A DNA stretch of 64,000 bases from contig JABYQU010000072.1 in the NCBI GenBank assembly GCA_022264855.1, forward strand, positions 1 to 64,000, in the 5' to 3' direction. The DNA comes from Lenzites betulinus (taxonomy: Eukaryota; Basidiomycota; Agaricomycetes; Polyporales; Polyporaceae). A program made the position numbers and the translations under genes. The notes beneath the pieces were generated by a model. The model was given only the letters and a program-made list of their open reading frames with translations. It was not told where the DNA came from and did not search any database. This document shows, one piece after another, positions 5,123 to 34,799 of this stretch (positions are counted from its first letter, which is position 1; every line of letters begins with the position of its first letter).

Positions 5123-5146
5123 GCCCCAGTGAGAATCGACGCCAAC
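5123..5146 (+). repeat. Left TIR of the CACTA/Tnp2 element
   Basis: This 24-bp terminal repeat is preceded by TGA (5120-5122). It pairs with 38512-38535 with a single C/T difference. Confidence 0.85.
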
Positions 5147-8981: not shown

Positions 8982-9065
8982 GGAATTAATGGATACAGGA
9001 CGCATATAGTCGATTCAACTCGGCTGGCTCTATTGTACAAGTATGTCTACAGGGTTCTTATGAAA

Positions 9066-9945: not shown

Positions 9946-10230
9946 CAGCTGCTGCTGTAGGAATGATACATCATATGCCGGCTAATGGCGTGCGCCGTGA
10001 TACAAAGTAAGCCGGCTGGTTTCGTGATGTATCACGAGTCCGCCGGGAGCTCCGAAAGCTGCCTTATGCTCCGTTCGGCTTCTCGGCGGCCTTCCTAAAG
10101 CGGTAGGAATGGGCGGGTGCCTCTAGTAAACCCTCCGGGGCTTCCCAAAGCGGTTGTTCTGCTCATGTAAGCGTTCCGGGACGTCCTAAAGCGGTAGATA
10201 CATGTCGGGGAACTTGTAGGCGGCGGCTAA
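9946..10230 (+). repeat. Left TIR of the outer KDZ element
   Basis: From about 9964 to about 10197 I see no mismatch with the reverse complement of the right arm. It contains repeated TGATAC/GATGTATCA motifs near the tip and three copies of CCTAAAGCGG/CCCAAAGCGG further in, with another at 10257. The outermost 13 bases are CAGCTGCTGCTGT. Confidence 0.85.
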
Positions 10231-10431
10231 ACCCATAAATCACTCATAAATGTGCCCAAAGCGGACGGTGTACCTGTGCACATAGGATGCCAGGCATAGC
10301 ATGTCTACTTTCAATTGTTTGGAGCCTTAATACTCGAGGTACAACGATTCTGATTGTCCATAGCATATACAACAAGATGAAGGGGTACATGAGAGGCAAC
10401 TACAACGATAGAGAGTGGTAGGAGGGACCCA

Positions 10432-13400
10432 TCAACGCCGGCGTGACTTCTTTGTGCTCTTAGGCTCCTCTTGGGAGGGTGCAGATCGTTTCCTTTGTGA
10501 TGAGAAACCCGGGTTAGTGGGATAACCATGAGGAGCAAAGGCGACTTACTTCGAGGCTGCCCTGCCCTCAGCCATCCTCCAAATCGCCCACCCAACATCC
10601 TCGGCAGCTTCTTCACACTCCTCAATGGTGCTTGAGGCAATCTCCCTCCACCACATGAGGGACGCAAGCACCATGAATATGCCGTTCTTGCCGGAGTGAT
10701 CGAGCCGGCCCCAAGGCCCCTCGCCGGTGTGCACACGATTGGCAGCCCCATCTCTCCGCCACTCTGGCTGCAGGCATGCCCACCATGCGCGCCAGCGCTC
10801 GGCGTAGACGGCCTCGTCTTCGATGATCGGGTTCTTGTTGATCTTGCGTCCGAACTGCAGCCACTGCGCGACCTCTTCGGGGCGATTATCAGTGGGGAGG
10901 CCTTGCTTCTATGAGGACGTTAGCATAAGGAACCTGCTTGGATGAGAAGAGCATTTACCGTAGATACCCATTCATGGCGGCGTTCGAACACCGTCCACCA
11001 GGCCACAGCCCGCCTGAAGCCCTCACCGAGCTCCGCCAAATCCAGCCTTTCGAAGCCCTCTTTGAGCCAGGGCGGCCATGCGCTCATGTCGATAGCTACG
11101 TCGGGGACCCCTGACCTGGAGGCGGGTAAGGACGTGGGCGCAGTCGAGGACGCGGCGGCAGGTGTCGACGACGCGGTCGGATTTGCTGGTACATGTCGTG
11201 GGCGTGGGCGGACCTTTGCCCTTGTCGACGTTGTAGGCGCAGGCTCGGTTGATCTTGCAGGCGCGGGCTCGGGGGGCGATGTTGCGGGTGCGCCGGTGTT
11301 GGACGTCGTGGGCGCGGGCGTGGACGACGTCGACGCTGTGAGAGCGACAGCGTTGGATGTTGCGGCCGCGGGCGCGGTAGACACTGAAGGTGTGGGCTCG
11401 GTGGGCGGCGTTGCAGTCGCACCGGCGCTGGACGTTGTGGGCACGGGCGTGGAAGTCAACCTCGGCGTTGCGGGCGTGTCCTCGATCACGGGCGCGGGCG
11501 CGGGCGCGGTTAGCGTTGCGGGGGCGGGCTCGGTGGACGACGTTGCGGTTGCGCTGGTGTTGGACGTCGTAGGCGCGGACATGTCCTCGTTCACGGGCCC
11601 AGGCTCAGACAACGTCGTGAGCGCGTTGGACGTCGTGGGCGCGTTGGACGTCGTGGGCGCGTTGGACGTCGTGGGCGCGGTGGACGTCGTGGGCGCGGTG
11701 GACGTCGTGGGCGCGTTGGACATCGCGGGCGCATTGGACGTCGCGGGCGCGGCCAGCGTTGCGAAGGCGAAGGCGGGCGCGGTGGACGACGTTGCGCTGG
11801 CGTAAGACGTCGTGGGCGCGGGCATGTCCTCGTTCACGGGCCCAGGCTCGGACAACGTCGTGGGCGCGCCGGCATTGGACGTTGTGGGCGTGGGCTCAGT
11901 CGGCGTTGTGAGTGTGGCGGTGTCGGTTGTCGTGGATGCAGGCTCGGACAACCGCGCCCCATCCTCCTCTTGCTGCAGGCGACGAGAACGCCTCGGAGGC
12001 TCTTTCTCCAGCTGCTCTTCTGCAGCCTTGCGCTTTTTGGTCTTCTTGGGTGCGGCGGGTGTGGCGATATGGTGCTTGCCCATGATGGCCGCCATGGACA
12101 CAGCGTTGTTTGCCCTCGTGTTCGCGGCCTCCCGCTCCCAGTCCGATGACCTTGCCCACGAAAACAGCATGGACCGGCGCTGCTTCGCGCTGAACTTGTC
12201 CATCGTCGCTTGCATGGCCTCTCCAAAGCCGAGTGACTCGGGTGTCGGCGTTGGTCCACGGTTGAGGTGCTCGAATTCATCCTCCTCGTCCTCCAACTCA
12301 TCGTCCTCCAGCTCATCCTCCTCCAGCTCGTCGTCCTCCAGCCCATCGCCCTCAAGCTCGTCCTCGTCGCTGCTGTTCTCCCTGTCATCGTCATCGCTCG
12401 TTGCCGCACTCTCGGAGGAATCACGACCTCGTGTCTGTCGAGCAGCGCGCTTTCCCTTTGATTTGCGGGAGGCGCTCCTCTCAGGGTGCAGGGTGCCGGC
12501 TCTGCTCGGTAAGGGGGATATGGTCAGGCCCAAGGCGGAGAGCGCGGGAGTAGCAGGGGTGATCGAGGTGCCAGCGGTGGCGTTGACAGCGGGCTGGCCC
12601 TCAGCCTCCATGCGCTGTAGGTACTCTACTGCTGGTTAGCGGATGTTGTATGTAGTGTACGCTGATACACATACCAGGAGTCTTCATCAAGAAACGTGTG
12701 AAGGAGCGCATCACGTCGCGTCCAAACACAGGCTCCTCATAGACATGCCAGGGCTCTGGCACTGGACCGCTGGTTCGACCGGACGTCACGCTGGAGTGGC
12801 AGGGATAGTGTCAGAGAGAAAGGCAGACGGGCAGCGTCGAACATACGTACACCTTCAAAAAAAACTCTTGCGGGCCGCTGGGGAGTGCAACGCCGGCGAT
12901 GAGCGTACAGTACAAGCCTGTGTAGTCTTGCAAGAGCTCCAGCAGAGGCTGGACAACGGTGGCGAAGTTGCCCCGCGCTCTATGCAATCTATAAGCCACC
13001 GCGCTCACAAGTAAAACGCGCGATACATACTGCTGGATTCCGTCATTGTCGATGTGCGCCGCCCCGGGCAGAGCTCTCTCTTCGTACTCCGCCATTTCCT
13101 CCTCGTGGTTCCGCTTCGTCTCCGCGTCGAGCGCGTCGCGGACTTCCTCGGGCTCGGCTGCGAGCAGCTCTCGCGCGATCGAGCTACGGAACGCCAGGCT
13201 TCTTCTGCTTGGTAGATTCGCGGCTGGCCAACGCTCATCGAACACGGCGCTCACGTCCTCGGCGTTCTTCGTCATGTATAGCTGCCATGGGGACATCCGC
13301 CGCGGTGGTGGGATGTCCTTCGCTCGGTTCTGCAACGCGGCGAGGAGCGGGCGCCACGGGTTTTGCTCCTTCACAGTCGTTGTGGTGTATCGATAGCTAA

Positions 13401-13859
13401 GGTGGGTTTTGATGCGCTACACCAGTCGAATTAGCTACGAGGGGAGAGCGAGCATGTAGAACTCACCTGCTCAGTCTGCTCAATTACCCTACCCTTATTC
13501 TCGGTGGTCTCCTCGGAAGGGGCGGGCTCCAGGTACAAGTGGAGGTCGCTTGGGTCCTTGTCAAGGGGGAGGTACCAGGGAAACTTGGCCCAGTACGACG
13601 CGAACAAGGCGTTGAAATACTTGGATATGAGCGCGCGGCCCTTCCCCTTGACCTGGCAATACCCAGTAAGTTGCTCGTCCAGGAAGGCCTGCCGCTCGCC
13701 GTGGAAGTTGCCCTGATTCCCGGCCCTACCGCCTTTCTTTGGCTTGCTTTGACGGGCTCTCTTGCGGCGGTCGCGCGTCGGTTGAGAAGCGGCTGTCGGG
13801 GCACGGGTGACGTCGGTCGCGTCGAAGAGGACAGATGCAAATCCATCCCGTGAGGACAT
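10432..13859 (-). CDS. KDZ-cassette protein with divergent HMG-like box (outer copy)
   Basis: This multi-exon minus gene starts at 13859 (MSSRDGFASVLF) and ends with a basic tail (KKSRRR, stop at 10432). Ordered blocks are GGRAGNQGNFHGERQAFLDE and YWAKFPWYLPLDKDPSD (exon 1); SPWQLYMTKNAEDVSAVFDE through IARELLAAEPEEVRDALDAE to HEEEMAEYEE (exon 2), which resembles a degenerate HMG box; VVQPLLELLQDYTGLYCTLI; SGPVPEPWHVY; and, after a long Thr/Pro/Ala repeat and acidic linker, WPPWLKEGFERLDLAELGEG and WRAWWACLQPEWR with GKNGIFMVLASLMWWRE. The inner element carries a homolog with the same blocks (19480-22807). A divergent HMG protein is a known companion of KDZ-TET elements; a DNA-binding role is inferred. 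It is transcribed divergently from the gene at 14106. Confidence 0.75.
11580..11800. repeat. 18-bp coding minisatellite in the HMG-like gene
   Basis: The unit GCGTTGGACGTCGTGGGC and close variants repeat about nine times in a row (densest at 11623-11750), encoding APTTSN-type hexapeptides in the disordered linker of the outer HMG-like protein. The whole of 11200-11900 is built from looser variants of the same unit. Confidence 0.85.
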
Positions 13860-14105
13860 CTTGCGTTGCGGGGGCGCGCAAGAGAGACGTGCGGAGAAGG
13901 CCTGAGTACAAGCGTATGACCAGGTGGCAGGCGACGCGTTGGCTGAAGCGCTGAAGCGCGTCGGGCGCTTCGTCGTTCAACAAACCCGGGGTGCCCCAGC
14001 TGTCACGTGCTGGTTCTGATCGACCGATCGCCGTGACCGATGGTTGAACGTCGAACTTCAACCACGACCACGACCACGACCTCCCCTTCCCTGCTCTCCT
14101 CAATC
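13860..14105. promoter_or_regulatory. Divergent promoter interval, outer cassette
   Basis: These 246 bases separate the start codons of the HMG-like gene (-) and the double viroplasmin-like gene (+). The inner element has an equivalent interval of 247 bases (22808-23054). The matched spacing suggests a conserved bidirectional promoter. I see no clear TATA box. Confidence 0.45.
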
Positions 14106-15250
14106 ATGCCTCGAGTCGACCCCGAACTCATCAAGGACTGGGACACCCTCGCGGCCTCCATAGGCAAAACCCCCAAGCTCGATCAGGAGGGGGAGATCGT
14201 GTCCATCGGGGCCACCGGCCCCAAGGGCAAGACCTACGTCGTTTGGGTTGGGCGCGCAGTCGGCCTGTTCAAGAACTGGTGCGTCCCCCGCTATTGTGTT
14301 CCTCTGCTTACACTGATCACCTCCTCAGGGGTCTCACAAGTGCGATGGTCACCGCGTTCCCCGGTGCTATATACAAGTCGTTCAAGACGTGCGAGGAGGC
14401 ACGCGCCGCCTGGTACGAAGGCCCGACCAAGCATCTGCCTGGCTGGAAGCCCCCGCCTCCCCGCTCAGCAAGGCCCACCCCGCAGTCACATGCTGCTGCC
14501 AAGCAGTCCGAGGCCCAGGCTGAAGAAGGCGCCCTCACCGCATCCCCTCTCGTTACCGCCACCGACGTGCACGTACTTCTGCCGCCACAGGCGATGGAGG
14601 ACCCAGAAGCGGACGCTGACGTGGACGACGCCTTCTTGCCGTGCGCGACGACGCCATCGCGCACCTCGTCGATCTCAAGCGTCTCCAGCATATCCGAGTG
14701 GTCCGACACCGTCGATGAAACCATGCGGCCGCGGCCCTCGGTTCTCACAGCCGACACACTCTCACTTTACAGCGCCCTCTCTCCCGCCATGTCAGAGCTG
14801 AACCTGCACGGACTTTCGCCGTCGACGCCTCGTCGGGCCAAGCACGGCGCGCGCTCCCCGAGCCCTCCGCCTTCTCCTACCACCCCAGCGTCTATGCGCC
14901 GGCTGACTCGCAAGCGCCAGGCACAGGGCTCACGCGACATGCAGCCTGAGCCCAAGGGTGTCCATGTCCGCAAGGGGGATGTGGTGTTCGTCGTCATCAG
15001 GGGGGACCGGCCCGGCATATACTTCGACCGGTAAGTCCGACATCGCATACCGCGCCAACAGGCCTGATACTGAGGGAACAACGACAGCACGTCCGCCTTG
15101 CTGAATGCAGGGTGGAACCCCGGCATGAAGATCGTCGCGTTCACGTCGCTTTCCCAGGCGGCGTGGTACTTTGTGCAGAAGTACATGCAGCAGAAGGTCG
15201 GCGTCCCCGTCATCGAGGTCTTCAGCGACGACAACGGCGAGGGGTTGTAG
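14106..15250 (+). CDS. Protein with two RNase H1-N/viroplasmin-like domains (outer copy)
   Basis: Three exons: 14106-14278, 14329-15030 and 15088-15250, in frame. Domain 1 (about residues 40-85) reads YVVWVGRAVGLFKNW then GLTSAMVTAFPGAIYKSFKT and EEARAAW. This is the pattern of the viroplasmin/RNase H1 N-terminal fold: an aromatic-V-GR-GL/IY-W stretch, then FPGAxYKSF and an EEA helix. A Ser/Pro-rich linker follows. Domain 2 at the C-terminus repeats the logic: VFVVIRGDRPGIYFDR, then PGMKIVAFTSLSQAAWYFVQ. Such domains bind double-stranded RNA or RNA-DNA hybrids in RNase H1; a similar role here is inference. No RNase H catalytic domain is present. The ATG at 14106 follows closely on the divergent promoter interval. 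The inner homolog is at 23055-24270. Confidence 0.75.
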
Positions 15251-15380
15251 CTACGTGTTCCGGGCCCCTGTACTATGTCTTGCTGTATAGTATCCTCAAT
15301 GTCATCGTCTGTCTGTGCCTTCTAGTGTGTCAGGGTGGTGCAGATAACATCCATGCACATTGAATACACCACTACAGTAA

Positions 15381-16044
15381 CTAAGGAGCATCCAGGCGTG
15401 CCTCAACAGCTGCCATGATCCACTGCACTTTAAAAACAACAGAGGTAACATTCTGCCATACCTGGAGACCTTCAGCGTGTGCTAAACCCTGCAGTGCGCC
15501 TTCCCCGAGTAACCGCTCCACCTCATCCAGTATAGCATCCCCCTCAACTACCCAGCTATCCTGCAATTGCACCCAGGTCTCATGGGCCTCCTGATCCACC
15601 GTCGCGCAGCGGCGTTTGGCGTCGTATTGAGCAATAAATTGTGCACGGTCCTCGCGATATCCCCATGCCTTGAGGCGTATGTTGAGCCTGGAAAAAGACG
15701 TCGAGAGCGCGACATTGGGTGTGAGAGGTATGGCGAAGGGACCAGCCCTGGGAGCGTGTTAGTTGTAAGCGTATGAAGGGTTTGCATGTTCGCCACGTCC
15801 CACACTCACCTGGCTACAGTACAAGATGGATCCGATGACCCACCGAGGCTATTCTCCTCGAGCTTGGCTTGCCTGAGAATTACACTAAGCCAGGAGGGCG
15901 CGAGGGGGACAGACGAACTCACAGTTTGAGTTTCTGCCGGTGCCGATGATTGCGAGCTCTGCGAAGCTTCTTCTGCCTCGCAATCTTCGCCGGTAGGTCT
16001 TCTGTAGAGGCCTCGGAAGCGCGTGTCGTCGTTGAGCATGCCAT
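15381..16044 (-). CDS. Small KDZ-cassette protein with basic N-terminus (outer copy)
   Basis: I place the start at the ATG at 16044 because that frame alone (KIARQKKLRRARNHRHRQKL) matches the inner homolog (RRLKQAALRKARNKRFYETK). After two short introns the C-terminal exons read AIPLTPNVALSTSFSRL, LKAWGYREDRAQFIAQY, VEGDAILDEVERLLGEG and VVFKVQWIMAAVEARL, closely parallel to the inner copy (QIPLTPNQTLVSRLTTL, LLVWGFTEDLDAFTQTF, GDDILDEIQ, SAFKVQYMMVFANVYVD). The product is basic at its start and helical after it. I know no name for this family. Conservation between two diverged elements shows it is a true cassette gene. Palindromes lie directly upstream (16107-16250). Confidence 0.65.
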
Positions 16045-16106
16045 GAGCCACGACGTGTGATGTGCTGGGGAAGCGTCGTGTCAGAGACAACAAACACGTA
16101 CTGCGA

Positions 16107-16250
16107 TGACCCGCGTCTCACCCTGGCTGAGGCTTGAGGTGTGCGGTCAGGCGCGCATGAGACGCGTCTCAAGTGGCCTTGCGGTGAGGGCGTATGAGAC
16201 GCTTACGCTGTTTCGCAGGTAGACGCGATTGTTCAGTGAGACGCGTCTCC
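16107..16250. promoter_or_regulatory. GACGCGTC palindromes upstream of the small gene (outer)
   Basis: A perfect 14-bp palindrome TGAGACGCGTCTCA is at 16158-16171. Near-copies lie at 16107-16120 (TGACCCGCGTCTCA) and 16237-16250 (TGAGACGCGTCTCC), with a half-site TGAGACGC near 16195. They lie between the start of the small gene and the 3' end of the TET gene. The inner element has analogous sites with changed flanks. Confidence 0.7.
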
Positions 16251-16314
16251 CCCGGGCGGTGATCAGAACACAGCTCAGCAAATGCTTTATAGTAATACGT
16301 CCATGCATGCTATT

Positions 16315-18225
16315 CTACTGGAACTCCTTCCAATTACTCAGCATACCTAGCCCCTGCTCCCACCTTTCCTGGCCAGTGTGCTCCAAGGGGATTGTGTCGG
16401 GCTCACGATCGTACTCACGACGTGAGCGACAGCCGCACTCAAGCCAGCGGAAGAGCCCGCCAGCGCTGTACTGAGTGATTGAGAGCCTGCTCTCCCCCTT
16501 CCCGATCTGTGTGTTGGAATGCCGCAGGATCGCAGACGGGATGAGCACCGTCGACCCCGCCGGTACCTCAATAAGCATCCTTAGATCCCATAGGATGAGG
16601 TGTCCTCCCCGCGTGTGATCAAAACTCCCCAGCGGGGTGACGGTGCACCACCCCCACGGAAGATTCAGGCCATCGATGTGTATGTAAGTCACCGTTCTGG
16701 GCCCGAGGTTGAAGGTGCAGGCGGCGAACGCGTTGTTGGAGAAGTTCGGGCGCAGCGCGGGGTCGTGTTCGCGGAGCTGGCGAAGGCTTGTCGCATAGTA
16801 GGTGTGCAAACGTGGCGCCCACAGTCGAAAGGCACCTGTAGCCCCATGAGCAAGAATCACGGAATAGACAGATGTGGAGGGCGTACCATTAGCGTAATTA
16901 GCCAGTCGCCGGATGCTGGGCCTGGCCAGCAGCCCGTTGAGTACGCGCTGGACCGTAGGCCCGTTGTCGAAGTTGCTCGGGTGCTGCCATCGAGACGTAT
17001 GAGTTAATGCCAGTAATGCATGGCATAATGCGAGCGCGTACCGTCTGGCCCCCTCCATAGGATATCCCCGACGTGATGCACGGGTATTCTCCTCGGCGAT
17101 GGAGGTATTCACCATTCATACCGCACGTCGCCCGTGCATCCTCGAGGGCGCGCGTCGCGTCGCATACCTCTTTATCCCACCCTTCATCTCTTGGGCGACC
17201 TGCTAGCACGGCGAATACTGTGCCTTCAGCATCGACGATGGGGCGTGGGGTCCTGACCCCAAGGAGGGCTGGTTAGTTTGCGGAGTACAAGCGAGAGTGA
17301 GTTCGGCTTACCTTCCATCCCAAGCAACGTACTTAAATCCTTTCTCTACCAGCTCCTTCTTTGTCACCGATTGGCCATCCACGCTGGAGCTTTTGAGGTG
17401 GCGCGCTATGTACGATGTCCGCGCGGCGCGGTGGCGCAGGGCGTCGATGGAAAATTCGCGCGCGCGGGTCTTCGCTGGCATAGGCGTGCTTGCCTCAAGC
17501 AGCACCGACTCACCGCGACGTCGCCGCGCAACCGCCTTGAGCTTCTGGGAGACTGAATACGAAGCCTCGACTTCCTGCGAGCGTGCGATCCGACGGCGCC
17601 TCTTCGAGCGCTGCTTGGCGTGATAATCGTCCTTCGACATGGCGGCGGTGCGTAGCTTGCTCGGTGAAGATGCTTGGTGGTGTGAGGGCGGCGCTGTGAA
17701 CATCTCTGAGGTGCTATCAGGTGAGCGTTGACTGGGTGGAGGGGGACGGGCTGTGCGACTGCGTCGAGGTTCGAAATGCCAGAGAGAGGGTTGCTGTTGG
17801 CGTCATGGCGGATGACTGAGTCTTGCCCGGGGTGCTCTAGTAGGTAGTCGCCATTCGTACTTGCAGCCTTGGCCAAGTCGCGGAGCGAGAAGCTATCCGG
17901 CGCGTGTAGAGGAGTCCCAGCGTCCGAAAACCACGGAGAGAACACGCGCCCGCGCCGAGTCTGCAGATGTGGAGTAAGCGCTCGGTGCTCCGTGGCGGTC
18001 GGGGAATCCGGCCCACCTTGCGAAACGGCGCCAAGAGGCAGCTGGATTCGGGCACGCCTGCGAACGTAAAAGGGGTCAGCGCTCAGCGGTCGTTCTCGAT
18101 TTGACTTGTACAATCGGAGCCACGGTGCGGGAGACCCGCGGTCCGGGTTCCAGAAGGCGGATCCTCGCTAAGCGTTCGCCCGCACCGCAGCTACGAGAGA
18201 TGTCGTGGAACTTACCGGCAGGCAT
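16315..18225 (-). CDS. TET/JBP-family dioxygenase (outer copy)
   Basis: This is an Fe(II)/2-oxoglutarate enzyme that would oxidise 5-methylcytosine in DNA. The first exon (18225-18216, ATG CCT GCC G) joins in frame to GVPESSCLLAPFRK, then to TRRGRVFSPWFSDAGTPLHAP. A Lys/Arg-rich middle follows (YHAKQRSKRRRR), then AVLAGRPRDEGW, HRRGEYPCITSGISYGGGQ and the catalytic core: FNLGPRTVTYIHIDGLN (HxD metal ligands), GGHLILWDLRMLIE, IPSAILRHSN (distal His) and RLSITQYSAGGLFRW (Arg for 2-oxoglutarate). All ligands are present. The frame changes near 17740-17800; I could not settle whether this is an intron or an indel. The divergent KDZ transposase starts 185 bp away. Confidence 0.85.
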
Positions 18226-18409
18226 GTGTGCTAGAGTAAGACTCGAGGAGGAAGCTATTGAAGCATTTGGCTGGCGCCGGCGGGGGAGGGCGGGGGTAAG
18301 ACCAACTTGGGAGGGTTCATATAACCTTCCAGCGCTAATGTGTGACGAGGAACCCCTTGGAAGTCCCGCGTGCTAAGTTAGGTTAAAGAAGCCACCCAAT
18401 ACGCCAAAT
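18226..18409. promoter_or_regulatory. Divergent TET/KDZ promoter interval (outer)
   Basis: These 184 bases lie between the start codons of the TET gene (-) and the KDZ transposase (+). CATATAAC at about 18319 is a possible TATA-like element for the transposase. The inner element has the same arrangement with 324 bases. Confidence 0.4.
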
Positions 18410-19015
18410 ATGAGCCGCGGAGGGCGCAAGCGCCCTGGCATCCCGGTGGCCGCAGACGTGTCCTGCGACTACGACATCAGCGCTGCAGAGGCAGCCTCCA
18501 CCCCGTCAACAACCCCCGTCGTCCTCTTCGACAACCTCTCCGACGACTTACGACGCCTCTACCGCGAATCGGTGCCTCTGCCTTCGCCTTCAACGGCTTC
18601 TGCTACCCTCGCTACCCCTACATTCTATGACCAGCCGCTCGCCGACATAGGTACCACCGACGACTGGGATCCTTCTCTCGAGCGACAACGCCCTCAGCCG
18701 AGCTATCAAGCTACTGTCGAGGATGCCGACGAAACCGAGCCTCAGGGAGCTCAAGAGTACGAAGAGCGTGACCCTGCGCGCCGGTACGAAAACTCGGTAT
18801 GTGCGGCAGCCCTCCATGCATCATGCTGAGCTGACCTCCCTCAGGACGAGCCAATGAAGACATGGATACCCATGGCCGCAGATTACTTGGACGAGAATCT
18901 GCGATATGAAGGCCGCGGCGATTTCTCGCAAATGATCTGCCCTGGCTGCCCACTTGCGAAGGAGGAGCGCGGCAAAGCAACCATCCGCTGCCGCGACTGC
19001 TCCCCCAGGCTGTAT
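18410..19015 (+). pseudogene. KDZ transposase of the outer element, 5' part
   Basis: Exon 1 is 18410-18796 (MSRGGRKRPGIPVAADVSCD..). Exon 2 starts at 18845 (DEPMKTWIPMAADYLDE..) and carries the first cysteines of the CxC2-like zinc cluster (MICPGCPL.., IRCRDCSPRLY). The frame is cut at 19015, the end of the GGCTGTAT duplication. It resumes at 31649 as CEECTASRHVDIPFHSIQ. Removing the insert and one duplication copy gives CRDCSPRLYCEECTASRH, which aligns with CRDCIPGPLCCEACMVRRH of the inner transposase. Confidence 0.85.
19008..19015. repeat. 8-bp target duplication (left) of the inner KDZ element
   Basis: GGCTGTAT, repeated at 31641-31648. The junction without the insert restores the outer transposase frame exactly. 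Confidence 0.9.
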
Positions 19016-19366
19016 CAGCAGCTGTTGTACCAATAATGTGTCACGAACCGTTTAGCTTCCGTAACCGTTTTACATTACGAACCGTCAGGCCCCGTAATGT
19101 GTCACGAAGCCCCGGTGGCTGTTCCGCTGGGCCGGGAGCTCCTCCTGGCGCCCTCTCGGCTTCTCGGCTTATTGCCTATTCCGGCAGGCTCCCTTGGTAT
19201 GTCTAGTATTCGTTTTGTACCTCCTCGGTTGCACTCTACGCGATATATTTCTATTTGCCGAGTAGATACAGATCGGTGCTTACACATGTACTCCGTTTTT
19301 TTCGGACAAATTTGGGACCTCCGGGCTTCTCGGACTTGCTCAGAAGTGCACACTAGCAGGGCGCTG
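19016..19366 (+). repeat. Left TIR of the inner KDZ element
   Basis: Begins CAGCAGCTGTTGTACC and contains repeated TAATGTGTCACGAA and ACGAACCGT motifs near the tip. It ends where the right arm meets the stop codon of the transposase. Confidence 0.9.
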
Positions 19367-19479
19367 TCCTTCAGGCACAACGTGGCAATAGAATAGCCCA
19401 CGGGGAACGGTAGATACAGGGCATGGGGATGGGGTACATGGCAGAACAGAACAGCGTGCATAAAATGGGTGCGGGGGCC

Positions 19480-22400: not shown

Positions 22401-22807
22401 GACGAGCAGCTCTATACAGAACCGTAGTTACTCACCTGAGTGACTTCCCCGACCACCTTTCCCTTGGCTTCACGCTCCGCTTCCGTGAACAGAGCTTCGT
22501 CCGGCAACTCACAACCTCCTTCCCCGGGGTCGTCCTTGAGGGACAGCACCCACGGAAATTTCGGCCAATATATCTTGAAAAATTTCGCCCAGAACTCGTT
22601 TTGCATTGTCCTGGCGGTCTTCTTGAGACTGTTGAACTCCGGCTGGTATTCCGCGAACAGGGTGAGCCGGCCTGGGCTGAACAAACCCGGGTTGCCAGGT
22701 TTGCCCCCCTTCTTGACTCGCTTTGTTCTCCGCCGTGTTCGTGTTGCTGCAGAGCTCGTGTACCGTATACCAGAGTCGTCAGCAAACTCCAGATGAGACA
22801 CAGACAT
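19480..22807 (-). CDS. KDZ-cassette protein with divergent HMG-like box (inner copy)
   Basis: The gene starts at 22807 (MSVSHLEFADDSGIRY) and ends DASSAELEEEQ..PLKKRRL, stop at 19480. Its blocks parallel the outer homolog in order: GGKPGNPGLFSPGRLTLFAE and KIYWPKFPWVLSLKDDP; LAPWQLYMSKKPTEIDEVLE with STIARELLAQESEEYRQEL, the HMG-box-like segment; VVQPLLELLREHTGMYITLL; AGPVPVPWHLC; a long acidic Asp/Glu/Gly run and Pro/Ser-rich linker; WPKWVREAFDHMESKGYGHA; WWNWWTQLQPEWRQLD; and GKNGVLIVLLSLVWWREVA. The linkers differ completely from the outer copy while the blocks are kept, so the blocks are the functional parts. DNA binding is inferred from the box and the basic tail. It is divergent from the gene at 23055. 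Confidence 0.75.
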
Positions 22808-22879
22808 AGCGAGTAGCAATCGCAGCAGCGGCGTGATTGAGCCCGAAAGAGGAGACACGTCAAACGCAGGAGCATGGGC

Positions 22880-22955
22880 GCTAAGTTCACGCGACGCGAC
22901 TGTGGAGGCGCCCACGTGTACGCGACGCGACATTGGAGGCGCCCACGTGTACGCG
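22880..22955. promoter_or_regulatory. Tandem GGAGGCGCCCACGTGTACGCG repeats in the divergent promoter
   Basis: Two direct copies of a roughly 33-bp unit (CGACGCGAC, then TGGAGGCGCCCACGTGTACG) occupy about 22892-22955, preceded by a partial copy. Each contains CACGTG, an E-box-like hexamer. They lie between the inner HMG-like gene and the double viroplasmin-like gene. Confidence 0.6.
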
Positions 22956-23054
22956 CTATGGCGCCTACACCTTGTCTCTCGCTCACCATCGCCGATCATC
23001 TACCCCGCTCTCGTTCACACCACCCCCTCGCTGCTCAACGCCGCACGTACGCTC

Positions 23055-24270
23055 ATGGTATCTCAAGATCTTCTTCGTGACCTCGACGCCGTGGCGAACT
23101 CCATCGGGCACACTCCCAAACTCGACAAGATGGGGGACGTCGTTCCGATCGGTCGCGCGGAGGGTGGGGGGATTGTCTACGTCGTATGGATTGGAAGGGG
23201 TGTAGGGCTCTTTCATAACTGGTAAGTTGATCCTTCCTATGCCATATGTCAGTCTTATGCATGTTTGTAGGGGTCTCGCACATGCCATGACTTGTGGCTT
23301 CTCCGGGTGCGCCTTCAAGGGCTACAAGGGCATCGATAACGCGCGCCGCGGGTGGATGCAAGGCCCGACTCGTCTAAAGGGAACATGGATCCCCCCTGCG
23401 CCGCGCGCAGCCATCCCAACTCCCGGCTTGCGCCCACAACCCCCTCCCCCTCCGACGCCACACACGGCCCCCGAACTCCCGCCAGAGATACGCTTCTCTA
23501 AACCGACCCCCTACAATGTATCCGTCGACTTCCCCGACGCGCCACCTCAACTGTACGAAGAGTTCTGGGATAGCGACAGCGATACCGACTGCTTTTACGA
23601 AGTGGAACAGCCGCCCTCGCCAGGTCCGCCGCCCTCGCCAGGTCCGCCGCCCTCGCCAAGTCCGCCGCCCTCGCCGCCCTCGCCGCCTCCGATCTCCTTG
23701 CACGACTATATCCAGGCGCATGGTAGGCCTGCGGCCCCGATGTCCCCGTCGATTTCAAGCGTAACATCGCTCCCGCTGTCGTCGCTGCTTAGCGATGGAA
23801 CCATCACGCCGCGCACCATCCACACACCGCTACTCACCTCGCCGATGCGTCAGCCCGACTCTCTCGGAACCGCTCCGGGCTTAGTGGCGCCCCCTTCCGT
23901 TCTTCCACTGCAAGACAGTCCGGCGCACAACTCCGCCCGCGCCAAACATCCAATGCATGCGCGCACACACCTCCGCGATCAGCGTACTAGCGCCCCCCGG
24001 CCCGCACAACCCCGCATCGTCTACGTCGTCGTTCGGGGTGATCACCCCGGCGTATACCTCATTAAGTACGCACGCACCATTGCGAAAGTATTTTGATTTA
24101 CTAAGATTCTACCAGGGACGTCGCACTTGAGAAGCTCGGCACAAAGCCCGGCATGAAGATCGTGCGATTCGACTCGCTCAGCCGTGCGTCATGGTACTTT
24201 GCACAGGAGTACATGGCGGGCCGCGTTGGCACCCCGGTCTGTGAAGCCGATGTGGAGAGCGAGTTTTAGA
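23055..24270 (+). CDS. Protein with two RNase H1-N/viroplasmin-like domains (inner copy)
   Basis: Exons 23055-23221, 23271-24065 and 24116-24270 join in frame. The N-terminus (LLRDLDAVANSIGHTPKLDK) parallels LIKDWDTLAASIGKTPKLDQ of the outer copy. Domain 1 is YVVWIGRGVGLFHNW then GLAHAMTCGFSGCAFKGYKG. The linker contains a PPSPGPPPSP repeat (about 23610-23695). Domain 2 is IVYVVVRGDHPGVYLIK then PGMKIVRFDSLSRASWYFAQ. Both domains keep the G-hydrophobic-Y/F pattern and the K/F-S/K-F/Y strand of the viroplasmin-like fold. Domains and intron positions are conserved between the two elements while linkers are not. Hybrid or dsRNA binding is inference. Confidence 0.75.
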
Positions 24271-24389
24271 GCTAGGCGTGCTGTTCCGGCTGTACTACGC
24301 ACGAATGTAAATGTATTTGAATGCTCAGCGCACACGAAACCCCGGCGTGCGATCGACAGACGACTGACCGACAAAATATGCGAGTTGTT

Positions 24390-25077
24390 TCACATGCCCA
24401 AGTCTACGTACACATTGGCAAAGACCATCATGTACTGCACCTTGAACGCAGATGCAGACAGCTGCTCCCAAAGCCTCCCCATGTGTCTGGGTGCGAGGGA
24501 CTCAAGGATGCCGCTAGTTACCACGCCCTGTATCTCGTCGAGAATGTCATCCCCGCGGTTCAGCCAGCGCTGTGTTTCTTCCACCCACAACGCCCTTTCC
24601 CCGGCTCCTCCATCATTGGCGCGTGCGTGTTTGGCCTTGAATGTCTGCGTGAAGGCGTCGAGGTCTTCGGTGAACCCCCACACGAGAAGGTCGTTCTTCA
24701 ACGTCGTCAAACGAGAGACCAGCGTTTGATTGGGGGTGAGGGGGATTTGAATACACGGAAGCTGTCTGCAGGAAGTAAATGAGGACATAGTCGCAGCGGT
24801 GAGTGTAGACATACCCAGCCGCAGCCGTAGGCAACGCCCGGCAGGCACCATTCGTGCCCAAGGAGGTCTGGCTAGAGATACACGACTCCGTAGGCGGTAT
24901 CAGACCCATGCTTTTCCTGTGTATTTCTAATGAGTAGTAGGCCATGGAGACAAGGAGCAGGGTACAGTACAACTTCTTTGTCTCATAGAAACGCTTGTTG
25001 CGGGCCTTGCGGAGGGCGGCTTGTTTAAGTCGACGTTGAAACATTTCGTCGTCGCTCAGCGTTTTCTTGGGTGGCAT
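24390..25077 (-). CDS. Small KDZ-cassette protein with basic N-terminus (inner copy)
   Basis: Exon 1 from 25077 reads MPPKKTLSDDEMFQRRLKQA then ALRKARNKRFYETK. After two introns the main exon continues GQLPCIQIPLTPNQTLVSRL, LLVWGFTEDLDAFTQTFKAK, RWLNRGDDILDEIQGVV and SAFKVQYMMVFANVYVDLGM, stop at 24390. It is homologous to 15381-16044 at the same cassette position. Function unknown. The basic N-terminal helix could contact nucleic acid and the C-terminal helices could mediate pairing, but neither is shown. GACGCGTC-core palindromes lie directly upstream. Confidence 0.65.
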
Positions 25078-25168
25078 TGTGATAGTATACAGAAAGCAGT
25101 CGCCAAAGTAAGTAGAGCGAGTGTGGGTGATGGAGAGATACCGGGTTCCGAGGCGAAGGTGGGCGCGG

Positions 25169-25255
25169 TAAGACGTGTCTTACCCTGCGGGGATTGTGCA
25201 GCGCTCAACTCATGGCCTTTCCAGCGCCGGGGATACAGACTTAAGACGCGTCTTA
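25169..25255. promoter_or_regulatory. GACGCGTC palindromes upstream of the small gene (inner)
   Basis: TAAGACGTGTCTTA (25169-25182) and the perfect palindrome TAAGACGCGTCTTA (25242-25255) lie between the small gene start (25077) and the TET stop (25336). The core equals that of the outer element, but the outer flanks are TGAG/CTCA instead of TAAG/CTTA. Confidence 0.7.
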
Positions 25256-25335
25256 CGGGTTTGGATCGACTTACACACTTTGTAACTGGGTGCGATGGGT
25301 TAGATTATTTCAGCGGCTAACATCAGAATTACTAA

Positions 25336-27292
25336 TTACTCAGATCTATGCAAGGTACAAATCTCTGACCAGGTACTAAGTAGCTCTATTCCACGCCGCC
25401 AGCGCTCATGCCCGCCATTATTCAACTCCTTTGCGGTCACTCCAGAGTCCTTCAGTGATTGGAATCCACACTCTACCCACCGGAAGATCCCCCCGGGGGA
25501 GAATTGGGTGAAGGAGTACCTTCTTTCATGCTCGGCTACCGCGGTGTTGGAGTGCTTCAGGATGGCCGAGGGTATAAGGATCGTGGCCCCGGGGGGAAAC
25601 TCTATAACCATGCGTAGATCCCAGAGAACGAGGTGCCCCCCCGCGTTGGGTCGTAGTTACCGAGCGCGGTGATGCAGCACCACCCGCAGGGGATATTCAA
25701 ATGATCGGTGTGGACGTGCGTCACAGTCTTGGGGCCCAAGTTGAACGTCGCACAGCTGAACACAGACTGGTCGAAGTTACGCCAAAGGCCCAAGTCACGG
25801 TTGCAGATGGCAGAGAGGGTGGATGAGTAATACTCATACATGCGTGGCGCGAAGAGTCGCAGGACACCTGGGAATCTACGATGAGTAATGCCCTGTCCAT
25901 GGTCGGTGGCACTCACTGTTCCCGAAGTTCGCGATGCGCCTGACTGCCTTCTGACGCAGCATTGAGTTCAGCGTCGCCTGATTCGGCGCGGAGTGCGCGA
26001 GGTTGCTGACGCGCTGGCAATACGTGGGTGAGCTTGCGGTACGCACGATTCAGAGGATGGACTGCCGATGCTTACCCTCTGCCCTCCACCGTACGATATC
26101 CCGCAATTCACCGCACAAAACTGCCCCCTACGATGCACCAGTTGGGATGCAGACGCACTGTACGCGTCGCGACTTAGCTCGAAGATCTTCTGTAGTTCTT
26201 CGTTGACTTGAGGCCACGCGGGGTCCCGAGGATGGCCGGCGAGGATGGCGAACACGCGGCCGGTCTTGTCCAAGATGGGCCGACACAACCTAGCGGGGGA
26301 TGAGGGGTGTGCACCCCTCATCCCCCGCAGTGAACGAGTAATGTATGTACTTACTCGCCGTCCCACCTCACCATCTCAAACCCTTGCGCCTCCAACTCCT
26401 TCGCCGTCCACGCATATGCATCTTCGGGCGATGGCGGCAGGCGTTTTCCAACAAACGCGCTCTTTGCGATGGGGACGTCCTCCTTGTCGAGCGAAAAGTC
26501 GGTCTTGATCGGCTCAGGGCCGGTGACATTCGTGCGGGCGTCGTCGTCCGCGAGGGTTGAGGTGATGTCGTACTCGGAGGGGATGGAGATCTTCAGCGCC
26601 TGTGCAGCAGCAACGCGCTTGCGGGCGATGGCTTTGACTGGGCGTCCGGTGATGGGGGCGCTGCCGAGTCCCGCAGTGTGTGCGCTCGAGCGAACCGCAC
26701 GTCTACGCTCCTTTGACCGCTTCTTGCTGTGATACTTCTCCTTGGAGCCGGCGACGGAGGTCTCGGCTGTGGATGGCGACGGCGGGGATGGGGTAGAAAT
26801 GACAACGGTGGTGGTTGGGGGGGTGTCGCGCATATCCGGAGTGCATTCGGAGACTTCGTATGTGAGGGGCAGGTCGTCCTCTTCGCGCGCTGCGTCGGCG
26901 GCATCTTCAACAACTTGCTGTAGCTCGATAGCGGCCTCGACGCGCGAATCAAGCTCGAAATCGTTGGGGGCATGCAGCGGGACGCCGACGTTGCACACCC
27001 ACGGAGAGAAGGCTGCGCCGGACCGAGTCTGGCGGCACGTAGGTAAGCGCCGTGGTTGGGAAGCTGTGAGAGACACCTACCTTGCGGAACGCGCCTGCGT
27101 TGCATGGCGCGGTCGAGGTTTCTGTTTGTGAGGAGAAATGGGTGCAATGAGCATGGGTTTGTCGTAGGAAGGGGGCGTCGAGGCTACGTGAGCGTATGCC
27201 ATCCGGGTTCCAAGCGTCGGATCCACGCTAGGCATACGCGTCTCGCAGCGCCGACAGCCACAGTGGATGGACTTACTGGAGCGGCGATGCAT
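25336..27292 (-). pseudogene. TET/JBP-family dioxygenase with a one-base frameshift (inner copy)
   Basis: The start at 27292 (MHRRSS) splices in frame to AFRKTRSGAAFSPWVCNVGV, matching the outer enzyme. Further on are YHSKKRSKERRR, ARPILDKTGRVFAILAGHP, HRRGQFCAVNCGISYGGGQR, FNLGPKTVTHVHTDHLNIPC (HxD) and, in another frame, LVLWDLRMVIEFPPGATILI, PSAILKHSN and RRYSFTQFSPGGIFRW. The frame breaks in a run of seven Gs (plus-strand C run about 25636-25642): eight would give TRGGHLVLW as in the outer copy (TRGGHLILW). The metal-binding HxD is thus separated from the distal His and the 2-oxoglutarate Arg. Everything else looks intact, so the lesion is recent or a homopolymer sequencing error. Confidence 0.82.
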
Positions 27293-27616
27293 GGGTTCGC
27301 CGGATGCGTCAATCGGCGTTGTGTGTGCTTGCGGGGGCGGGCATTGAGGTGGACGCGAGGATTAAATATGGCTGAGAGGGTTCGCAAACAAACAGAGTGT
27401 GAAACAGATCGGGTGAGGGCGAGGTTTGCCGCGGTACTACTTCACGTCGGGGCTTGTTGTGACACAACGCGTGACTGGACGCGTCGAGCCGCTGGCCAGT
27501 GCAACGTGGAGTTCTCTTCTCTGTCATCTGGCCGCTGTACTTCTCGGGCTTCTCTTTCTCGGGCTTCTCTTCTTTGTGCTTAACTTACTTTTAACTTAAT
27601 CTACCTTCGCGAAGCC
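27293..27616. promoter_or_regulatory. Divergent TET/KDZ promoter interval (inner)
   Basis: These 324 bases lie between the TET and KDZ start codons. GATTAAATATGG at about 27360 is an A/T-rich island in GC-rich surroundings, and GGGCTTCTCTTTCTC is repeated at about 27548-27575 just before the transposase start. Confidence 0.4.
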
Positions 27617-30600
27617 ATGGGACGAAGCAGACGCCAGCGCAAAGCCCCGCGAGCTCCGGCAATAGACCCCTCCCTCATCGCAGACTTCGAGGTCCCTCTC
27701 TCCGACGTCCCAATACCTACGGACATACTCTCTGCAGAGAAAGTCTCCGTCGACCAACGTCGACTTCACCGAAGCTCTGTTCCCCTACCCCCTTCTGGCG
27801 AATTGCAGTCGGTCCCCCTCCCAGACGATGCTGCCGCTCCCGACCATCTATCCTTGGGGGGCATTCTGTTCAATGCCGAAGACCCGTTCTTCACGCCAAG
27901 CGGACCCGACGACACAGGGAGCAGAGTGGACGTGGAGGATGGTTTGGAGGCAGGTGCTGCTCGTTATCTTGCATCGGTACGTCGCTTGGCCATTCCTCCC
28001 TCCCATAACTAACCGGTAGCAGGACGAGCCAATGAAGGCGTGGATCCCCAAGCGCGACAAGTACCTTCATGAAATGTTACGGCTCGACGGACGTGGGGGA
28101 TATGCACGCGAACGGTGTGCTTCATGTCCGGACGATCAGGCGGCGGGGGCCGCTGTAATCCGTTGTCGCGATTGCATCCCCGGGCCGCTTTGTTGCGAGG
28201 CGTGCATGGTTCGCCGGCATGCGCATACCCCGTACCACCGCGTCCAGGTACGGTCTCTTATTACTCGACGACTGTGACAATCTAACGCGCTTGCTTTTCG
28301 TCAGCGGTGGGAGGGGGGTACTTTTGTGGTTACATCCCTCAAGGAATTGGGACTGACGATACGCCTGGGGCATGAGGCCGACGATTTTGAATGCTCCAAC
28401 CCCATTTGCTCCCGCGCAGACTTCTCCGTCGTGCACATCAATGGTCGACACAACGTTTCCGTTATGTTCTGTGGCTGCGACAGGGCTGGCGACGCCGGCG
28501 ATCCCGTGCAGCAACTCCTACGACTCCGGCTCTATCCAGCGACCGACAGCGAGCCCAACACCGCCTTTACCTTCGACCTCCTCGAACACTACCATATCCA
28601 AAGCCTTCAGGGCAAGATATCCATGTACGACTACTACACATCGCTGGAGCGTCTGACCGACAACACCGGCACCTTGAAACTACAAGACCGCTACCGGGGT
28701 TTCATGCGTGTTGTTGCCCAATGGCGACACCTCAAACGGCTGAAGCGTTGTGGGCGTGGGCATGACCCTGCGGGCGTCGAGGGAACAAGTCCGGGCGAGC
28801 TGGCTGTGCGATGCCCCGCCTGTCCTCGTCCAAACGTCAATCTTCCCCCCAATTGGGATACGGTATCAGACGACCTTCGGTGAGCTCGTGTGCGCTCTCT
28901 TTCGATTGCTGCTAACGTTGTGTTCAGTTTCCTTTACTTCATGACCGTCGCCATCGACGCATGTTTTCGATTGAAGCGGCGCGCCGTCTCCGACGCCGGG
29001 AAGGATCCAATATTGGGTAGTGGATGGGGATATTTTGTAGAGGATACCGGCTACCAGGAGGTGCTGCGTGGGTACGGGCAGCAAGACGAGGTAGGCGCAG
29101 TGTGCATTGAGTTACCCTTGCCCAACTGACGGCGGACTGCTCCACAGATGTCGACATGCACTGGCTTATCTGCAATTGACCACGCAAACAGCAAGTTTTC
29201 GAAGGGCTATGCAGCGACGGGTATCGGGGCGGTTGTCTGCGCACGCCATGAGTTCTGGCTGGCGCTAGGTGCAGGGGATCTCCAGCACGGCGAGCGGTGA
29301 GTTCTTACATGTTCTATGCGGTTAGGTCTTTTATCTCATAGCTTGCAGGTATATAAACATGGACTATATCTATGTTTGCGCCTTGCGGGAGTATCTCGTT
29401 TTGAACAAGATCGTCAGCTACGACATAGCGTGTCAATGGTCCAAGAACATCCTCGAACGCATCAGAAGCCTCCCCTCCCACATCCAAATCCCCGTGCCAG
29501 AAGGCTCCGTTATCTACGCTATCCCGAAGCTTCACTACGGCAGTCACCAGCAGGCGGGTCACTCAAAGTTTTCGCTCAACTACCGCATTGGCAGCGCGCG
29601 CACGGACGGCGAGGGAATCGAGCGGCGCTGGTGGTGGATTCAGCCGATCGCCAACAGCACCAAGGTAATGGGCCCCGGGATGCGGCAGGGCATGTTGGAG
29701 GATCAATGGGGGTATTCGAACTGGCGGAAGATGGTGGACCTCCGTATGTGTGCTCTATCTGTTCTCTTGCACAACACTCACAGCGTCTACTACAGCGTGG
29801 ACGCTGGCCAGTCGACTCAAGGACGCGCTCGCCGAGGCTCAAGTCCAGAAGACCCAGTATGAGGTGCTTACAGAGCGGCTGAGCAACGAACACATCGTAC
29901 TATGGGAGGCCGAGATCCAGGAGTGGGAGTCGAACCCGGATGAATGCAATGATCCATACGTCGTCGCTTCGCAAGGTACGAGTACTATCTCTTTGCGACG
30001 ATGTCTACCGGCCGCTAACTGTCGTAGGGATGACCGAGGCTGAAACCGTGCAAAACCTCTCCGAGGAGGAGCAGGCGACAAGCGCGTTGCCCGGCTTCAT
30101 TGCGCTACACAGCGTCAGTGTCCTGGGCTTCCTTACCTGCGGGCTGGAGATAGAAGCACAGCAGTAAGTCCATTTGCCGCCATACCGTCGCATCTTGCTG
30201 ATTGTTACTTAGAGCACGTCTGGTAGAGGATGTGAAGTCCGTGATTCCGAGCAAGCTGGCAGAGATCCATGAGCGGCGTACATCTCTTCGGCGCAAGATC
30301 CAGAAGTACAGGGAGCTCCAAGCTGTGTACATGCCCGCGGCTACGCCTGTCCTCGCCGAGGACGACGCATGCCGTACCGACGTTCAGCACGTCGAGCACA
30401 TCCGCGTCGGCCTACCGTCGGAAATCAGCGAGTCACGACGCACTGCGGTGTGCAGCGCACGCCTTATCAACATGGAAACCCGGCTTCGAACGGCTCAATG
30501 TCGCGACGCCCTCCAAGACCTCCGGAACAAGCTGCACACCATCGAGCAGCTGTACAGCTACAAGAAGCTCAATGTCCGAAATCAGGGCCCGAACACCCGT

Positions 30601-31290
30601 GCGCGTGCCAGTATAGCGCAGCAGGAGGCGAGGAAGTTGCGCGCCGTCCACAAGTACCGCCGTGCACGCCGCGCGCTGCTCGCGCTCTGCGGCACCGGAG
30701 ACTGGGAGCAAGAGATCAAGGTCTTGCTGGACGACGATGTGCGGGGTATCGAGGAGGATGATCCTGCAGTCATAGCGAGGCGGAAGCGAAAGCGGGGCGA
30801 CAAACCAGGACCTGCTGAGGGACGCCGTCGGATGTCCTGGATCTGGCATACTTCCAACGAAGACGGCCCGCACCAAATCACCGACAGCCTGCGAGTGGAA
30901 TGGCTGAAGAGCCGCGCGCGGCATATGCGATGGCAGGAGGAGATCAAGCTCCTCCCTGAAGAGATGCGACGCGTCCTGGCGACGCACCGTCACGAGGCCG
31001 AGCAATGGCGCGCCCACTCAGAAGCTGCAAAGGTAATATCATCTGATCCCTCTCTTCAGGAGGGCCTTGTCGCGTACGCCTTAACGCAGGCACACATTCG
31101 GGTGGCAATGGCCCGAGTGCTGCTGACGGTTTGTCAACCGTACGCAAGAAATGCGCTGTCTGGGACTGGTCCTGAATGGGAGGGATGGGGGGACGCAGGG
31201 TCTGAGCCTGCTGCAGTCGCCGTGGATGAGGGCGATGATTATAGGGATTACATGTCATTATATCAACTAGATGGGGAGGATATGGAGTAG
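27617..31290 (+). CDS. KDZ transposase with CxC2-like zinc cluster (inner element)
   Basis: Nine exons (27617-27976, 28023-28247, 28305-28879, 28928-29090, 29147-29296, 29349-29743, 29796-29975, 30028-30163, 30213-31290) join in frame. The N-terminal half has a cysteine cluster (ERCASCPDD.., IRCRDCIPGPLCCEACMV..H) followed by SLQGKISMYDYYTSLERLTD and CPACPRPNVNLPPNWD. The RNase H-like core supplies acidic residues in AIDACFRLKRR, VSYDIACQW and RTDGEGIERRWWW, the pattern expected for KDZ transposases. C-terminal helices (QCRDALQDLRNKLHTIEQLY; LRVEWLKSRARHMRWQEEIK, LLPEEMRR) follow. The stop codon abuts the right TIR. No disabling change is visible. Confidence 0.9.
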
Positions 31291-31640
31291 CAGCGCCCTG
31301 CTAATGTGCACTTCTGAGCAAGTCCGAGAAGCCCGGAGGTCCCAAATTTGTCCGAAAAAAACGGAGTACATGTGTAAGCACCAATCTGTATCTACTCGGC
31401 AAATAGAAATATATCGCGTAGAGTGCAACCGAGGAGGTACAAAACGAATACTAGACATACCAAGGGAGCCTGCCGGAATAGGCAATAAGCCGAGAAGCCG
31501 AGAGGGCGCCAGGAGGAGCTCCCGGCCCAGCGGAACAGCCACCGGGGCTTCGTGACACATTACGGGGCCTGACGGTTCGTAATGTAAAACGGTTACGGAA
31601 GCTAAACGGTTCGTAACACATTATGGGTACAACATATGGT
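31291..31640 (-). repeat. Right TIR of the inner KDZ element
   Basis: Reverse complement of 19016-19366. It starts one base after the transposase stop codon and ends GGTACAACATATGGT before the GGCTGTAT duplication. Confidence 0.9.
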
Positions 31641-34728: not shown

Positions 34729-34799
34729 CACATTTACCGCTCCATATGTCAATTTTATTGTATGTCTGCATTGGAAGCGCCCATTGAAGGGTTGTGCCA

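Follow-up and report, generated by a model that had tools for sequence, protein, structure and literature searches.

The first 64,000 nucleotides (forward strand) of contig JABYQU010000072.1 from the wood-decay basidiomycete Lenzites betulinus (GenBank assembly GCA_022264855.1), referred to here as the window, contain two large KDZ transposons, one inserted in the other, which carry the same set of five genes. These are the outer element A (9946-35168) and the inner element B (19016-31641), in both of which the genes run in the order HMG-like (-), viroplasmin-like (+), small protein (-), TET-like 2-oxoglutarate (2OG)-Fe(II) dioxygenase (-) and KDZ transposase (+). A and B probably belong to a single lineage of large cut-and-paste KDZ transposons, within which they have diverged, and their ends are of the Kyakuja type. 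The favoured account of their origin is that their common ancestor was already a five-gene KDZ transposon of the Kyakuja type, whose proteins would have the roles proposed below.

Gene content and termini of elements A and B

Each gene of A has a homolog in B when their open reading frames (ORFs) are compared by blastp. For the best exon of each pair, the E-values are 8e-99 (KDZ), 1e-33 (TET-like), 1e-27 (HMG-like), 9e-19 (viroplasmin-like) and 6e-18 (small protein), with identities of 56%, 34% (intron codons included), 41%, 52% and 32%, respectively. This confirms the gene content, order and strands that had been given for both elements in an earlier reading of the DNA made from its letters alone (the sequence-only reading).

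The HMG-like gene of A (10546-13859, -) is delimited by homology to B, with conserved N-terminal, middle and C-terminal blocks and a long low-complexity linker; its introns are not fixed and its ATG is presumed. It is followed by the viroplasmin-like gene (14106-15250, +) with three exons, coding for an RNase H1 N-terminal domain and a second, degenerate copy of it, the main exon of the small-protein gene (15381-15758, -), the TET-like dioxygenase gene (16315-18005, -, 5' end approximate), whose catalytic exon (16315-17115) holds an HxD...H triad, and the KDZ transposase gene, which is in two parts (18410-19015 and 31649-34728, both +). The corresponding genes of B are HMG-like (19529-22807, -, ATG presumed), viroplasmin-like (23055-24269, +, three exons), small protein (main exon 24390-24899, -, with a helix-bundle model for its product), TET-like (25336-27076, -, given as exon blocks with an approximate 5' end) and KDZ transposase (27617-31290, +, about eight open exon blocks). 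Between the presumed HMG-like ATG and the viroplasmin-like ATG, which lie head to head, there are 246 bp in A (13860-14105, ATGs at 13859 and 14106) and 247 bp in B (22808-23054, ATGs at 22807 and 23055). The matching divergent promoter intervals reported in the sequence-only reading are thus borne out, and their lengths suggest shared promoters.

Element A is about 12.6 kb long without the nested B and has a 7-bp target-site duplication, TTGTGGC, on both sides (9939-9945 and 35169-35175), 5'-CA..TG-3' ends and terminal inverted repeats (TIRs) at 9952-10197 and 34917-35162 which are 98% identical over 246 bp. Element B, at 12,626 bp, has the duplication GCTGTAT (19009-19015 and 31642-31648), the same 5'-CA..TG-3' ends and TIRs at 19016-19366 and 31291-31641 with 98% identity over 351 bp. 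The insertion site of B is in the CxC region of the KDZ gene of A. Once B and one copy of its duplication are removed, the transposase frame of A, which resumes from 19015 at 31649, is uninterrupted across the site, and the rejoined stretch matches its counterpart in B. A side-by-side arrangement is ruled out by this nesting. The span of 9946-31640 that had been proposed for two separate elements has to be revised, as A ends at 35168 and the span therefore omits its last 3.5 kb, with the right TIR and most of the transposase.

The TIRs of the two elements had also been described as unrelated, and a local alignment of the left TIR of A with that of B matches 13 bp only. However, their termini have several features in common. 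The outermost 15 bases, compared by eye, follow the pattern CANNNN(C/A)TGNNGTA(G/C) at all 12 ends of the six elements for which a duplication was found, A and B included. A 7-bp duplication with CA..TG ends is present in six of nine elements tested, namely A, B, C87a, C22 (elements from elsewhere in the genome being named here by contig) and two 2.4-kb non-coding elements, and was not found for C4, C51 and C87b. The search demanded CA/TG alongside the duplication, hence the 7-bp and CA..TG results are not independent; in a chance control, such a duplication beside CA/TG occurred in 1 of 300 random stretch pairs from the window. Duplications of 8 bp, as in Zisupton and Dileera, were also considered and are excluded, by eye, by the flanks of C28, C87a and C22, those of A, B and C55 being compatible with 7 or 8 bp. 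The TIRs of the elements with the five-gene cassette range from approximately 250 bp (A) to approximately 900 bp (C22).

These features were compared with those of Kyakuja elements, which have 7-bp duplications, 5'-CA..TG-3' termini, a KDZ transposase and a linked 2OG dioxygenase, according to the available part of their description (Kojima, 2025; PMC12730594). All four of these, the KDZ domain included, are shared by TET-bearing Kyakuja elements with A and B, and the Polyporales are among the listed hosts of the former (PMC12730594, same part). With regard to TIRs there is a difference, as A, B and their relatives have TIRs of about 250-900 bp and two Laccaria families of Kyakuja have none, which is not stated as a rule in that part of the paper (PMC12730594).

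Roughly the outermost 100 bp of the TIRs also recur as inverted pairs, at least 12 of B type and at least seven of A type among the matches listed. Most of these pairs are 2.4-2.7 kb apart and one A-type pair is 0.9 kb apart. Two of the non-coding elements were read and show no match to a cassette gene, yet have 7-bp duplications and CA..TG ends, and the existence of such elements points to action of the proteins in trans. The two elements, of 2.4 kb, have a G+C content of 0.47-0.49 and CpG observed/expected ratios of 0.77 and 0.74, lower than in the five-gene elements, a comparison confounded by coding content.

Co-occurrence, selection and descent of the five genes

The genome of L. betulinus (37.4 Mb, 108 contigs) was searched with single exons as queries, these being the small protein, exon 3 of the viroplasmin-like gene, the C-terminus of the HMG-like protein, a TET-like exon and a KDZ exon; all match counts are lower bounds, taken from the best-scoring candidates only. 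The four accessory genes co-occur at ten of ten loci (A, B, C4, C22, C51, C64, C73, C92 and C87 twice). The KDZ exon has a stop-free match at seven of the ten, and the full five-gene order was read in seven elements (A, B, C4, C22, C51 and both on C87). Each of these seven KDZ-complete elements has both the viroplasmin-like and the small gene, the two genes whose loss from most intact elements would have told against selection on the whole set. The contigs C64, C73 and C92 stop 222 bases beyond their last match to the TET-like exon, so the presence of KDZ cannot be judged at these loci; their four assembled genes have the same order and strands, as read for C73 and as given by match positions for C64 and C92. 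All three contigs stop at the same point within the TET-like gene, in elements of the C51 type, which probably reflects a repeat at which the assembly broke.

A number of these copies are nearly identical. The two C87 elements share 99.65% identity over 13.7 kb, C51 and C73 share 99.7% with some flank included, and C64 and C92 score as C51 and C73 do. The ten loci are therefore not independent and were counted as six lineages. The C87 elements (1688-15875 and approximately 20837-35020) lie in opposite orientation some 5 kb apart, with a clear 7-bp duplication in the first only. A second inverted repeat, 743 bp long and 98% identical (2278-3020 and 17781-18522), lies around the C4 element, which may therefore be inserted in another one.

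Queries for the small and viroplasmin-like genes have ten of ten matches each at the cassette loci and none elsewhere in the genome, at the sensitivity of single exons. This finding speaks against the very unlikely alternative that the accessory genes are cargo kept for the benefit of the fungus, with the transposon merely as a carrier. On the other side, low ratios of nonsynonymous to synonymous substitution (dN/dS, below) cannot by themselves separate host from element benefit, and many dioxygenase copies do lie outside the cassette. The TET-like exon has at least 44 matches, grouped into 38 loci, and at 28 of these no small, viroplasmin-like or HMG-like match was found at the search sensitivity used. 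The dioxygenase family thus does not depend on the cassette, which counts against the five-gene account, as does the fact that linkage was examined in one genome only. Six of the 28 solitary loci were read for at least 8 kb on at least one side. At five of them (C98, C32, C13, C34 and C46) none of the other four genes was found nearby. At the sixth (C22:106210), no HMG-like, viroplasmin-like or small gene adjoins the dioxygenase, a KDZ fragment is about 3.5 kb off and the C22 cassette ends within 6 kb. In part of these readings, exon 1 of the viroplasmin-like gene was sought with the exon of A only.

The KDZ exon query also matches four distant loci, on C30, C78, C60 and C46, the last (at 201-203 kb) not being among the loci read. 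At the other three, no match to the viroplasmin-like, small or TET-like genes is credible. On C30, an HMG-like gene adjoins the KDZ gene in divergent orientation, forming a two-gene core, and the HMG-like query match there is weak. A TET-like exon match on C30 (E-value 0.006, 50 residues, outside the HMG-like/KDZ pair) and a viroplasmin match on C78 (E-value 0.0044, in a proline-rich ORF) were taken as chance.

Between B and C4, dN/dS (Nei-Gojobori) is 0.13 for the HMG-like gene, 0.20 for viroplasmin-like, 0.13 for the small gene, 0.14 for TET-like and 0.11 for KDZ, calculated on approximate exon blocks with dS of 0.86-1.41; against C87, C22 and C51, substitution is at or close to saturation. 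Purifying selection on each of the five genes is shown by this comparison of coding sequences. The claim of selection on the whole set, as made in the sequence-only reading, keeps its support from the ten joint loci and the dN/dS values of 0.11-0.20, and loses its premise of two families with unrelated TIRs.

The trees of the KDZ, HMG-like and TET-like genes have one topology, ((B,C4),(C87,C22),(A,C51)). The pair (B,C4) is recovered in all five gene trees and (A,C51) in four of the five. There is some disagreement that tells against the five-gene account, as support for the (C87,C22) split in the TET-like tree is just 0.04, C87 is not paired with C22 in the small-protein tree and A is not paired with C51 in the viroplasmin-like tree. 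Identity of the small protein among lineages is 25-46% outside the B/C4 pair. Given the similar ends and duplications and the broad agreement of the gene trees, the shared order appears to come from one five-gene ancestor and not from two unrelated families, and the simplest reading of these comparisons is inheritance of the set as a unit and not its assembly on two occasions. Independent assembly of the five genes in two unrelated transposon families, or their long separate keeping there, could account for TIRs that align over just 13 bp, yet is hardly credible, being contradicted by the common terminal pattern with 7-bp duplications, by KDZ exons which are 56% alike and by the gene trees.

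Shared descent may also have operated without joint action of the proteins. Each gene would then help the element separately, for example in silencing escape or in transposition, and the order would reflect a lack of recombination inside the transposon. This is a possible explanation, though not the favoured one. Largely agreeing gene trees and similar ends point to a single origin here as well, low dN/dS for each gene is equally expected, and the loci on C30, C78 and C60 are without credible viroplasmin-like, small and TET-like genes, so KDZ transposition as such seems not to need them. However, separate benefits would predict partial sets, and no cassette locus has lost a middle gene (none of ten) despite small-protein identity as low as 25-46%.

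Domain assignments of the five products

The identity of the KDZ transposase is certain for A and B on the strength of its domain matches. The KDZ domain (PF18758, cut-off 26.6 bits) scores 100.7 bits in A (E-value 1.2e-28) and 96 bits in B (E-value 3.3e-27), and CxC2 is also above its cut-off in both (E-values 1.6e-41 and 1.2e-39, respectively).

For the dioxygenase, ten sequences were aligned, those of A, C4, C22, C51, C87 and five solitary copies. The HxD...H triad (H146, D148, H199) is invariant in all ten, and the same motif was seen for B in the ORF comparison, outside this alignment. Three of the ten match the Pfam family Tet_JBP (PF12851) over the catalytic core, namely C4, C98 and C46, with E-values of 7e-4, 0.0085 and 0.026. 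Several results weigh against a TET/JBP enzyme. The best of these scores is 19.3 bits, below the cut-off of 34.9, a shortfall to be read with the proviso that it is unchecked whether AG-type enzymes themselves reach this cut-off. Just one of the three is a cassette copy (C4), the other two being solitary, and the dioxygenase of A has no Tet_JBP match at an E-value of 10. A profile search of the PDB gave no match and a single-sequence search gave four weak, unrelated chains, and structure prediction from three rows of the window reached a pLDDT (predicted local distance difference test) of 34. A search of the whole genome with Tet_JBP gave no matches, as it did in control genomes, hence it is uninformative. 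Of the TET/JBP label, then, the HxD...H motif stands, and the family matches are sub-threshold and come from relatives only, none from the copy of A.

The residues after the motif also bear on the type of enzyme. The AG type of Kyakuja elements has Gly/Ser and Asp at the positions of CcTET Gly331 and Asp337, closely following His326 and Asp328, and HxE is the mark of the PE type, as given in the available part of the paper (PMC12730594). In the present family the residues at +3 and +9 past the Asp of HxD are Asn and Cys in ten of ten sequences, a further point against a TET of known type, the positions being counted gap-free from that part of the paper and without explicit alignment to CcTET. 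The dioxygenase of the A/B lineage thus differs from those known from Kyakuja in the absence of both AG-type hallmark residues (PMC12730594, same part), and the HxE of the PE type is absent too, with HxD in all ten. It would appear to be of neither AG nor PE type, unless a gap intervenes between the counted residues, and 5-methylcytosine (5mC) or N6-methyladenine (6mA) activity cannot be assumed. There is also a second, more divergent HxD group in the genome, with several copies and the motif HTD(S/A)LNDP(C/I)NWIH, which has Asn at +3 in the two members aligned; the other cassette genes give no match at those places.

A less likely alternative follows this line, in which the dioxygenase is a separate HxD 2OG oxygenase and not a 5mC/6mA TET. 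Its substrate would be another base or RNA, and in concert with the RNase H1-type protein it would be directed at transcripts or RNA:DNA hybrids derived from the element. In its favour are the residues past HxD, with Asn at +3 and Cys at +9 in all ten sequences where the AG type has Gly/Ser and Asp (PMC12730594, available part), as well as HxD in place of HxE, which sets it apart from the PE type, the lack of a PDB match for the profile and the RNase H1 N-terminal domain of the viroplasmin-like partner. Against it are the three relatives with weak Tet_JBP matches in the catalytic core and the counting of residues without an explicit CcTET alignment, and sequence cannot tell the substrate.

An intron splits the RNase H1 N-terminal domain of the viroplasmin-like protein. 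Cauli_VI (PF01693, cut-off 21) scores 25.5 bits in A for one exon half and 36-60 bits in four of four annotated relatives scanned, the C4 copy among them. It is not above the cut-off in the raw exon ORFs of B, the raw first-exon ORF being without a match. The protein had been called double viroplasmin-like. The first domain is upheld by the scores of A and the four relatives; the second comes from alignment only, with a sub-threshold score of 12.3 bits in B, and the relatives show one stretch only.

Nothing in the profile searches supports the HMG-like label, and this too detracts from the proposed roles. No Pfam HMG match was found in the scanned exons of A and B or in seven members of the middle block, and a profile search of the PDB with the middle block returned no HMG chain and one weak, unrelated chain. 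The C-terminal block of seven members had chance matches only in Pfam. The small protein of B is predicted by AlphaFold2 to be a helix bundle (mean pLDDT 90). No convincing Pfam family was found among 13 members (best E-value 0.013), a fold search returned generic helix bundles and no significant fold match, spectrin/BAG-type bundles being the type considered, and comparison with the PDB gave 20 weak, unrelated chains.

Proposed roles of the set and related elements

TET-bearing KDZ transposons of Agaricomycetes, and KDZ elements that encode an HMG-domain protein in divergent orientation, were reportedly described by Iyer and colleagues in 2014. The TET-bearing elements are thought to escape silencing by means of their own dioxygenase and have been described from transposase and dioxygenase, with the HMG-domain protein as an extra. 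The HMG-like gene on C30, divergent from KDZ, is like the second of these arrangements; A and B differ from it in having three further genes in between, and the HMG assignment is unconfirmed.

In the favoured account of a five-gene, Kyakuja-type ancestor, the KDZ protein would cut at the 5'-CA..TG-3' ends and also mobilise in trans the non-coding elements of 2.4 kb. An older transposition core may include the HMG-like protein alongside KDZ, and the middle block of viroplasmin-like protein, small protein and dioxygenase would be a block that this core gained or, alternatively, lost. The dioxygenase would oxidise a base on the DNA of the element, keeping the element transcribable or transposition-competent, or its ends reactive. 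Nucleic-acid binding could be the part of the viroplasmin-like protein, by way of its RNase H1-type domain, with the small helical protein as a possible link between partners. With two head-to-head pairs (HMG-like/viroplasmin-like and dioxygenase/KDZ), two short promoter regions might suffice to transcribe most of the genes. That the five proteins would act together in marking, recognising and transposing DNA, as put forward in the sequence-only reading, is a proposal drawn from gene linkage. On the other side, the CpG observed/expected ratio is 1.04 in A, 1.05 in B and 1.04 in the window at 36000-64000; CpG is undepleted in both elements, so no methylation footprint is visible.

A more specific and quite tentative version is a self-contained five-protein machine in which an HxD dioxygenase of a new type modifies the DNA of the element or its transcript hybrids, guided by the RNase H1-type adaptor and the small helical linker, the modified ends being the preferred substrate of the HMG-like and KDZ proteins. 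A fixed set which includes two further genes, both under purifying selection and in this genome found only inside these elements, offers concrete partners for the dioxygenase and transposase. It also poses the question of whether the dioxygenase is part of transposition or serves only in counter-silencing.

Outside L. betulinus, a profile search with the viroplasmin-like protein found at least six proteins, from Lenzites, Trametes cinnabarina, T. sanguinea (three) and T. cubensis. The profile of the small protein found 12, including proteins from Ganoderma leucocontextum and metagenomic sequences and four from this genome; a single-sequence search with it had matches in this genome only. Neither family was found described for KDZ elements in the literature searched, and viroplasmin was not found joined with KDZ or Kyakuja there, a scope to which the 2014 report of Iyer and colleagues did not belong. 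The words viroplasmin and HMG do not occur in the available main text of PMC12730594.

A possible relative is found in Pleurotus ostreatus, where the long copy of helpo1.3 is 10.7 kb longer than the others and has inverted repeats flanking three genes, as described in the available part of the source (PMC4289320). These code for a protein with a UL36-tegument-like match, a Cauli_VI viroplasmin and an RNase H-fold putative transposase (PMC4289320). The copy is described there as a case of Helitron gene capture, and KDZ, TET and HMG are not in the available text (PMC4289320). As a guess from this gene content, it may instead be a nested KDZ element related to A and B.

To the left of A, the window contains another DNA transposon, with a long ORF (5997-8585, +) that matches Transposase_21 (tnp2) with an E-value of 4.6e-13.

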